From the NCBI GenBank assembly GCA_900551385.1, contig URVS01000084.1, forward strand, positions 1-6,471: a DNA stretch of 6,471 nt, read 5' to 3'. The notes beneath the pieces were generated by a model. The model saw nothing but the letters and a program-made list of their open reading frames with translations, did no database searches and was not told the origin of the DNA. Made by a program: the position numbers and the translations under genes. Shown one piece after another: positions 1,591-6,471 of the stretch (within the stretch, counting starts at the first letter, position 1; every line of letters starts with the position of its first letter). The DNA comes from an uncultured Mollicutes bacterium. Its GTDB lineage: Bacteria > Bacillota_I > Bacilli_A > RFN20 > CAG-449.

Positions 1591-1726
1591 AGTATAGAAA
1601 AGTATAAAAATGATACTGATAGATTGTTATAAAAAATTCTGATTATCAAAATAATTGGGATTTTTTTGTTTTATATGTATAAGAAAAATTTGTATGGCTA
1701 TTATAACAAAATAAATTAATAATAAT

Positions 1727-1756
1727 GATTAAATTTAATAGTTAATGTATTTAAAA
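1727..1756 (+). repeat. CRISPR-like degenerate repeat, upstream copy
   Basis: Aligned without gaps to the array-1 repeat it matches 23 of 30 positions. GATTAA and TTTAA at the 5' side and the 11-base block ATGTATTTAAA at the 3' side are kept. The mismatches fall mainly at positions 13-18, the hairpin core. The retained 3' end corresponds to the crRNA 5' handle (7 of 8 bases). Such identity is well above what AT-rich sequence would give by chance, but no alignment score could be computed here. Confidence 0.72.
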
Positions 1757-1790
1757 TTATTTTTAATTTATATTGTTTATAAATTAAAAT
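1757..1790 (+). other. Spacer-like segment between two degenerate repeats; perfect 11-bp inverted repeat
   Basis: The 34 nt between the repeat-like copies are close to the 35-37 nt of true spacers. The segment is all A and T except one G (1775). TTTTAATTTAT (1761-1771) and ATAAATTAAAA (1779-1789) form a perfect 11-bp inverted repeat around a 7-nt centre, ATTGTTT. It could be the guide part of a crRNA-like RNA or a dimeric repressor's operator. It overlaps the TTGTTT box that may be a -35 element of the cas promoter. Confidence 0.65.
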
Positions 1791-1820
1791 CATTAAAATC
1801 AACATGAGATGTCATCATTA
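1791..1820 (+). repeat. CRISPR-like degenerate repeat, downstream copy with intact Cas6 hairpin
   Basis: It matches the array-1 repeat at 20 of 30 positions in the same register. ATTAA and a run of 12 identical bases, AACATGAGATGT (1801-1812, repeat positions 11-22), are kept. That run contains the whole ACAT-GAG-ATGT hairpin and ends exactly at the predicted Cas6 cut site. The last 8 nt, the handle, are lost. The start is 64 nt from the start of the upstream copy, against 65-67 nt in the arrays. Confidence 0.75.
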
Positions 1821-1848
1821 TTATGTAAAATAATGGTAAAATAGTTTT

Positions 1849-2567: not shown

Positions 2568-5187
<2,620 letters not shown>

Positions 5188-5189
5188 AT

Positions 5190-5978
5190 ATGGAGATATT
5201 AAAATTCACTATTAAAGGTAGTAATGCATTTTTTAAGAAACCAGATGTTAATACGTATTTATATCTCACTTATGGAAATATCCATAAAATAGCTTTAATT
5301 GGCATATTAGGAGCTATTTTAGGATATTGTGGTTATAATAAAAATAAACTTAATTATATGATTAACAAAAAAGAGTTAAAAAATGTATCAGAAAATGATT
5401 TTCCTGAATTTTATGATAAATTAATTAATTTAAAGGTGGCAATTGTTCCAAAAAGTGAATATGGTAATTTTCCTAAAAAGATACAGACATTTAATAATTC
5501 AGTAGGGTATGCTTCAAAAGAACAAGGAGGAAATCTTATAGTAAAGGAGCAGTGGTTAGAAAATCCTAAATGGGATATTTATATAATTATTGATAATAAA
5601 CAGGCAAAAGTTATAGCTGATTATATTCTTAATAAAAAAGCAGTATATATTCCATATTTAGGAAAGAATGATCATTTTGCAGATATTGTTGATTCTGAAA
5701 TGTTTGAAGAAAATCAAATAGAGAAACTTTATGACACAAAAAAAATTAGTGGTTTATTTATGAAAAAGGATTTTTCAGTTTTAATGGAAGAAGAGGATGA
5801 TGAGGAAGAAGTTGAATATGAAGAATTATATAAATATGAAGAAAAGCTTCCTATTAGAATAAATAAGCAAACTAATATGTATGAATTAGAGAGCTTTATA
5901 TGTACTAATATGAATGTAGCAAATATAAGTAATCAGACAATATACAAAGTTGGTAAAGAAAATATTGTTTTTTATTAA
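5190..5978 (+). CDS. cas5: Type I-B Cascade subunit Cas5 (Cas5h)
   Basis: A 262-residue Cas5 of the I-B type, which caps the 5' handle of the crRNA and contacts Cas8b. Features typical of Cas5h include the N-terminal AFFKKPDVNTYLYLTYGNIHK (13-33) leading to the glycine-rich IGILGAILGYCGY, and a central KKAVYIPYLGKNDHFADI. No signal peptide is evident. An unusually acidic run, EEEDDEEEVEYEE (200-212), stands out in the C-terminal part of a nucleic-acid-binding protein. The start ATG lies 2 nt after the cas7 stop, with AGAGGTG (5178-5184) inside the cas7 end as ribosome-binding site, so the two are translationally coupled. A terminator-like hairpin follows immediately after the stop. Confidence 0.94.
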   Translation: MEILKFTIKGSNAFFKKPDVNTYLYLTYGNIHKIALIGILGAILGYCGYNKNKLNYMINKKELKNVSENDFPEFYDKLINLKVAIVPKSEYGNFPKKIQTFNNSVGYASKEQGGNLIVKEQWLENPKWDIYIIIDNKQAKVIADYILNKKAVYIPYLGKNDHFADIVDSEMFEENQIEKLYDTKKISGLFMKKDFSVLMEEEDDEEEVEYEELYKYEEKLPIRINKQTNMYELESFICTNMNVANISNQTIYKVGKENIVFY

Positions 5979-6027: not shown

Positions 6028-6471
6028 ATGAAACCTATTAATAAATATGTAGTAGATGTAAATGAGTATTTAAATAAACAGTTTCAGTTTTTTGCTCATT
6101 TGAAGGAAGATAAAATAACAAAAGAGATTAAGAAAGAAACATTAAATGATCATACAGTCTTATGTATTAAATATTTTGAAAAAATGGTAAGAACAAAGAG
6201 TCTGGAAAAAGTATTTAGAAATTTTAAAGAAGTATTTTTTGAAAAGTTAAGTCTTAAAGCTGAGGTACTATTAAATGAAATTGTGATTAATGTAATTACA
6301 TTTCATGATATTGGAAAGATTAATCCTAATTTTCAACATAAAAATATGAATAATGATTTAAAAATGAATATAAGAAATTTTAATAAGTTAGGAACAAGAC
6401 ATTCCATAATATCAGCTATATTATATTTAGATTATTTTCTAGAAAAGATTAAAGAAATTGAAAAAGATGAG
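6028..6471 (+). CDS. cas3: Cas3 nuclease-helicase, N-terminal HD domain (cut by window end)
   Basis: The first 148 residues of Cas3, still open at the window edge. Cas3 is the effector recruited by target-bound Cascade; its HD domain nicks and degrades the displaced strand while the helicase domain moves along DNA. Visible HD-domain residues are His24 (FFAHLKED), His42 (LNDHTV), the His93-Asp94 pair in FHDIGKINPNFQH (92-104) with Lys97, and His125 in RHSIISAI. These match the usual metal-binding pattern. The helicase part lies outside, so whether it is a full fusion or a separate Cas3'' cannot be decided here. ATG 6028 follows TAGGAG at 7 nt. It has a 49-nt gap to cas5 with a hairpin in it, unlike the tightly coupled upstream genes, so its expression may be set separately. 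Confidence 0.92.
   Translation, partial: MKPINKYVVDVNEYLNKQFQFFAHLKEDKITKEIKKETLNDHTVLCIKYFEKMVRTKSLEKVFRNFKEVFFEKLSLKAEVLLNEIVINVITFHDIGKINPNFQHKNMNNDLKMNIRNFNKLGTRHSIISAILYLDYFLEKIKEIEKDE

Follow-up and report, generated by a model that had tools for sequence, protein, structure and literature searches.

The question raised by this locus is what role a degenerate CRISPR unit with a single spacer might have between a pair of ordinary arrays and the cas operon. The window, by which we mean the whole stretch of 6,471 nucleotides analysed, is a type I-B locus in which two arrays are followed by cas6, cas8b, cas7, cas5b and the start of cas3. Array 1 (positions 25–645) has ten repeats in view, the last of them degenerate, and its start is lost at the window edge; array 2 (897–1520) likewise has ten repeats with the last degenerate. 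The earlier note had placed cas6 downstream of the unit, and matches to TIGR01877 and Cas6b at 1862–2554 confirm this. Cas8b (2568–4241; PDLC01507, E 1.7e-173), cas7 (4234–5187, from profile matches), cas5b (5190–5978; TIGR02592) and the HD part of cas3 (6028–6471, interrupted by the window end) follow, and all of these features lie on the plus strand.

The unit consists of an upstream diverged repeat (psi-R1, 1727–1756), a 34-nt spacer (psi-S, 1757–1790) and a downstream diverged repeat (psi-R2, 1791–1820), all on the plus strand. The two copies first described by the earlier note, with 23/30 and 20/30 identity to the array-1 repeat, on the same strand and 64 nt apart, were reproduced on the window sequence; the corresponding values for the array-2 repeat are 22/30 and 21/30. 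Among 2000 dinucleotide-preserving shuffles of 1590–1861, neither the spaced repeat pair nor the exact 12-mer AACATGAGATGT arose (0/2000 each), and a single copy with at least 23/30 or at least 21/30 identity arose in 2 and 30 shuffles, respectively. The asymmetric decay is also real in the window, with psi-R1 retaining 15/22 of the repeat body and 7/8 of the last eight bases, and psi-R2 retaining 19/22 and 2/8. The well-kept end of psi-R1 (7/8) is the predicted 8-nt 5′ handle ATTTAAAA (1749–1756, plus strand; Cas6 cut site placed by homology), and the well-kept part of psi-R2 (1791–1812, plus strand; 19/22) would form the 3′ handle. A putative mature guide RNA of 64 nt, delimited by the repeat boundaries, would thus span 1749–1812 on the plus strand.

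This division of labor resembles that of published creA genes, in which the last 8 nt are kept in the first repeat and the first 22 nt in the second, and in which the first repeat retains the handle bound by Cas5 but is less strict over its Cas6-binding part (described in parts of PMC8501985 and PMC9458426). The change in the psi-R1 hairpin had been regarded as the weak point of a guide RNA proposal. The change itself stands, as psi-R1 lacks the ACAT/ATGT stem of the array repeat, but it agrees with what is published and is not unusual, because the first repeats of published creA genes likewise keep their last 8 nt (same parts of PMC8501985 and PMC9458426). RNA folding found no stem in psi-R1 and predicted none in most units either, so that folding does not discriminate. 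No array leader was detected ahead of the unit when 716–896, which precedes array 2, was compared with 1590–1726 (164/300 shuffles scored as high).

A self-target, which is new relative to the earlier note, emerged through an inverted repeat (1705–1726/1756–1777). Bases 1–21 of the spacer (1757–1777) match the minus strand from 1725 to 1705 at 19/21 positions, and pairing is lost beyond position 21. The two mismatches fall at spacer positions 6 and 16, the second of which is off the sixth-base grid considered below. The target (protospacer 1705–1725, minus strand) adjoins psi-R1 and is flanked on its 5′ side by a TCA protospacer-adjacent motif (PAM) at 1728–1726 (1726–1728, minus strand) that overlaps psi-R1 by two bases, TC being the complement of the GA with which psi-R1 begins. 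With neither PAM nor position required, a match of at least 19/21 occurred in 2/3000 shuffles of the upstream DNA and in 0/3000 shuffled spacers, and the 18 array spacers in the window reach 11–15/21 against the same upstream region. On these sequence comparisons, the pairing between guide and target is well supported.

The assignment of the PAM is based on the units themselves and on the functional TTTCA PAM described in part of a study of the Clostridium pasteurianum I-B system (PMC4860712), because the matches of the array spacers to phages are weak. These matches comprise 67 records, all weak, with a best E of 1e-2 among the 40 matches listed, and those listed are mostly to phages of unrelated hosts. 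The plasmid and phage records searched contained no relative of the unit region and none of Cas6, and the viral contigs searched yielded 0 relatives.

A comparison across relatives shows that the pairing is conserved rather than the sequence. Cas6 homologues (E ≤ 1e-20) were present in 52/206 genomes of the Clostridium tertium family and 12/71 genomes of the Terrisporobacter family. The locus set, numbered with the prefix L, comprises 55 loci with the window and was drawn from Cas6 searches plus twelve loci taken by place, weaker Cas6 matches of the C. tertium family being left out; removal of L038, which has too little upstream DNA, gives 54 loci, window included. Spacer starts were placed after handle-like 8- or 12-mers, and a match with a TC-type PAM was sought within 600 nt upstream of cas6, with a threshold of at least 14/15 at positions 1–17 outside 6 and 12. 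Because the handle was thereby a search criterion for units in the other 23 loci, their handle scores are not independent support, and the automatic calls of the second repeat are unreliable for L001, L022 and L028. A spacer–target pair at threshold was found in 24/54 loci, 23 with TCA and one (L027) with TCG, so that 23 relatives have agreeing spacer and target; near-copies among the 24 (L047/L048 and L023/L035) mean that these represent fewer than 24 independent events. With any other PAM dinucleotide, no more than 2 loci reach the threshold, although AA, AT, TA and TT offer approximately fourfold more trials. By plain identity of at least 15/17, the counts are 24 loci for TC, 5 for AA, 3 for TG and at most 2 for any other dinucleotide, and with the PAM filter off the top-ranked match carries TCA or TCG in 21/52 loci. 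The layout seen in the window recurs ahead of cas6 in its type I-B relatives among the clostridia.

The mismatches that do occur are unevenly distributed. Plain identity of at least 14/17 is reached by 26 loci (24 with TCA, one with TCG, and L002 by way of a different match with TCT), and 27/37 of their mismatches fall at positions 6 and 12. In a position-class test over positions 1–18, where leaving out any class modulo 6 retains 15 positions, one mismatch or none remains in 24 loci when class 0 is left out, and in 9 loci for each other class; for zero mismatches the counts are 19 loci and 2. Position 18 is mismatched in 14/24 loci. In the type I-B Cascade complex, six bases of the crRNA are accommodated by each Cas7 subunit, and every sixth base is flipped out (described in part of PMC11096372); the sixth-base pattern says that the conserved property is pairing inside Cascade. 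Spacer and target also vary together. When spacers were swapped between loci, 3/1272 combinations matched, compared with 24/24 on their own regions, and the three cross matches involve close kin (L036 on L002; L047 and L048 reciprocally). The spacers of the window, L001, L009 and L012 can be aligned yet differ, and each agrees with its own target.

A target at threshold is absent in 30/54 loci, including L007, L008, L010 and L011, which are close to the window. The two-repeat unit of L007 is well kept (second repeat body 21/22), and no target was found in its locus or, by exact pattern, in its genome; perhaps its guide has a new specificity, or pairs imperfectly with a target located far away. 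L026 and L055 pair at 13/15 with TCA, below threshold, and L043 has a 15/15 TCA match beyond the cas6 start that was left out of the 24. A Cas6 search at the level of the order (53/225 genomes) returned loci nearly all of which were already in the set, and its one new match was left out. At the level of the class (27/391 genomes), 22 new loci were obtained, none within the 24; L059 and L060 are repeats of L052 and L053, and L073 has too little upstream DNA. Among these, L074, with a distant Cas6 (29% identity), pairs at 15/15 with a TCG PAM and mismatches at positions 6 and 12, and from it the sixth-base pattern may reach past the close family. L077 scores 13/15 and the remainder at most 12, apart from the repeated L059. 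Near-identical Cas6 proteins (97–98%, six clusters) are known as proteins without accompanying DNA.

The handle and body asymmetry, taken together with a self-target bearing a PAM, leads to a reading of the unit as a CreR-type guide. The unit is probably a self-aimed element of this kind, whose predicted crRNA-like RNA would lead Cascade to repress its own transcript and likely the cas operon. The earlier proposal of a CreA- or CreR-like guide is thereby strengthened by a PAM-flanked self-target that touches the unit and by pairing conserved across relatives. In the proposed mechanism, Cas6 would cut both repeats to give an RNA of ∼64 nt, which would be loaded by Cas5, Cas7 and Cas8b. With pairing limited to 21 nt, Cascade would bind without calling Cas3, and its presence on the target would block a promoter located at 1705 or slightly upstream. 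Array crRNAs or anti-CRISPRs that occupy Cascade would lift the block and allow more Cas protein to be made, as with CreR. The extent of pairing can be set beside reported thresholds: among the loci it ends at ∼16–23 nt, and at ∼26 nt with one mismatch in L018. In Haloarcula I-B, 21–24-nt spacers repress strongly and both interference and priming vanish at 24 nt (from part of PMC10989794), and in Parageobacillus I-B interference is lost at 26 nt or less (from part of PMC10551041).

Which gene the guide controls was approached through the arrangement of target, unit and open reading frames (ORFs), which by eye falls into three layouts among the 24 loci. In 12 loci the target lies between unit and cas6, and the four of these checked (L023, L024, L028 and L035) have no complete ORF with a Shine-Dalgarno sequence after the target. 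In nine (L001, L009, L012, L015, L047, L048, L049, L052 and L054) an ORF preceded by a Shine-Dalgarno sequence follows the target, and L026 and L055, which pair at 13/15, likewise have an ORF at the target. In the remaining three (the window, L002 and L036) the target is just upstream of the unit and no such ORF precedes cas6. In the window, no complete ORF with a Shine-Dalgarno sequence was found from the target to cas6, and inspection of the other strand by eye over 1600–1704 found no GGAG, GAGG or AGGA motif. The nearest kin having a target, L001, L009 and L012, carry it upstream of the unit and on the same strand, and the ORFs at their targets encode 36 amino acids, 3 amino acids (three codons) and 29 amino acids from a GTG start, each after a Shine-Dalgarno sequence. 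These ORFs raise the possibility that control was originally directed at something other than cas.

The short ORFs of 29–36 amino acids that follow the target (L001:4729–4839, L012:1240–1329, L054:1557–1652 on the minus strand and L055:987–1076) are CreT-like in place and are putative toxins. In three further loci (L015:1180–1383, L026:2235–2441 on the minus strand and L052:738–998) the target directly precedes a small ORF with a match of the HTH_11 or Rrf2-like kind, and Cascade possibly represses a linked regulator or toxin there. Pfam matches (E ≤ 0.01) of these three ORFs include no KilA-N domain.

Among the 18 plus-strand targets, the T of the PAM is the last T of a −10-like hexamer in 11, a feature of 25/325 TC sites in the same regions (these 11 included), and by virtue of this enrichment many targets among the relatives likely sit on promoters. 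In the window itself, 1580–1870 contains 3 promoter-like sites where shuffles lead one to expect 3.9, and the best plus-strand candidate (TTGGGA-17-TATAAG, 1655–1683) is weak. Closer to cas6, a promoter-like site of the form TTTACA-17-TA(A/G/C)AAT occurs in L001, L007–L012, L014 and L015 (19 loci scored over the last 70 nt). It is absent from the window, L002 and L036; L018, L025, L027 and L030 score low too, and its absence is therefore not special to the layout of the window. At the place of the −35 element, which in the window falls inside psi-R2, the sequence reads ATCATT, in contrast to TTTACA in the nine relatives, and the extended −10 (TG) is kept. The latter is the candidate promoter element TGGTAAAAT (1834–1842, plus strand), and because it remains before cas6 the cas genes could escape the block. 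The loss of the −35 in the window and the absence of the proximal site in L002 and L036, which share the layout without an ORF, suit control of cas. The simplest reading of this region is that one upstream promoter would serve both the unit and the cas genes, the target lying on this promoter or immediately downstream. Autorepression of cas is the likeliest use of the guide that the sequence suggests, and we infer that cas itself is under the control of the unit.

The main rival is a CreTA module that has lost its toxin. The target would once have been the promoter of a toxin gene, and deletion of that gene from between the target and the first repeat would have left little to control. The target of the window does touch the repeat, as such a deletion would leave it, and L001, L009 and L012 retain an ORF in just this interval, behind a target on the same strand. 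We nonetheless consider this unlikely. In the Cas6 tree (which leaves the place of the window open), L002 and L036, which share the layout without an ORF, group together with support, away from L001, L009 and L012; the pairing in the window is kept at 19/21, and the common lack of a strong cas6-proximal promoter in the window, L002 and L036 fits control of cas instead.

A second alternative, a mini-array decaying without function, would account for repeats that are strongly diverged, for the missing leader, for the 30/54 loci in which no target reaches threshold and for the one mismatch off the sixth-base grid, and the guide RNA is a prediction. A PAM-flanked self-match of this length is rare by chance, however, and neutral decay would not produce 23 relatives with agreeing spacer and target whose mismatches lie mainly on flipped-out bases. 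This covariation disfavors the dead array remnant offered as an alternative in the earlier note, the off-grid mismatch in the window notwithstanding, and we regard it as very improbable. The match could instead be an RNA stem-loop around psi-R1, since 1705–1726 and 1756–1777 form an inverted repeat and a transcript begun upstream of 1705 could pair with itself. The predicted fold of 1705–1820 is not unusually stable (z −1.07; 29/200 shuffles fold as well) and leaves 1705–1722 unpaired, and in 18/24 loci the target is a direct rather than an inverted copy, from which no such stem could form. A hairpin would also need neither a PAM nor a sixth-base pattern. Folding and target orientation thus disfavor the hairpin, and we give it hardly any weight.

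The reading of the unit as a CreR-type guide can be placed among known systems. The primary report of CreR reportedly dates from 2023. In type I and V-A systems, CreR is a crRNA-like unit beside the cas operon with limited complementarity to the DNA upstream of cas (as far as described in part of PMC12737573). The window is alike in having, beside its cas operon, a single crRNA-like unit whose repeats have diverged, no toxin gene that we could find, and a spacer with partial complementarity to neighboring, PAM-flanked DNA, that DNA again being upstream of cas; the two repeats differ in the same sense (handle 7/8 in the first and 2/8 in the second; body 15/22 and 19/22). It is different in that the target is on the minus strand and precedes the unit, with a PAM that overlaps the first repeat by two bases. 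The target of CreR is the cas promoter, whereas a cas promoter at the window target is something we infer. CreA of CreTA modules, found in type I-B haloarchaea and others, shares the two diverged repeats, the asymmetry and a partly matching spacer with a PAM (in parts of PMC8501985 and PMC9458426). The window differs from CreTA in having no toxin ORF between target and unit, where L001, L012 and other relatives do have an ORF, and on this absence it would work like CreR and not like CreTA. In CrePA, a CreA guide is combined with a protein toxin (per part of PMC12737573), an arrangement to which L015, L026 and L052, with targets just before a small ORF encoding an HTH domain, are similar and which the window, lacking such an ORF, is not. 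An ordinary type I-B array has the same repeat origin, orientation and 64-nt spacing, and is distinguished from the unit by the divergence of the unit repeats (23/30 and 20/30), the lack of leader similarity and the self-matching spacer. Going by titles and the openings of abstracts, with subscription papers outside the scope, we found no report of CreR or CreTA in Clostridium or of a sixth-base pattern in CreA.

If the CreR-type reading is true, many clostridial type I-B systems steer themselves through RNA-guided binding of Cascade, and there is a suggestion of how a single guide could alternate between restraining cas and repressing a small gene linked to it. A more far-reaching reading, which we advance tentatively, is that the window contains a self-contained switch of 116 bp in which guide, PAM and target overlap, such that one Cascade footprint would shut off both the guide and cas. 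Such a switch would be an old clostridial I-B part that has been repeatedly re-aimed, at the cas promoter, at small ORFs and at HTH regulators, while keeping a 5 + 1 mode of pairing that records the geometry of Cascade. The sixth-base pattern also provides a simple computational way of recognizing such guides, together with their targets, when nothing but sequence is available, and it indicates TCA as the working PAM with no need for a phage match.

Several further features concern the arrays themselves. The ends of the two arrays and their trailers (613–714 and 1488–1589) share 93% identity across 102 nt, suggesting a duplication or an exchange involving arrays 1 and 2. The array-2 repeat at 1424–1453 has the base of the array-1 type (CTTTAAC) and one more change, and this suggests exchange between the arrays. 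The first, partly visible spacer of array 1 (1–24) is identical to the final 24 nt of the spacer at 120–155, likely reflecting duplication inside that array.
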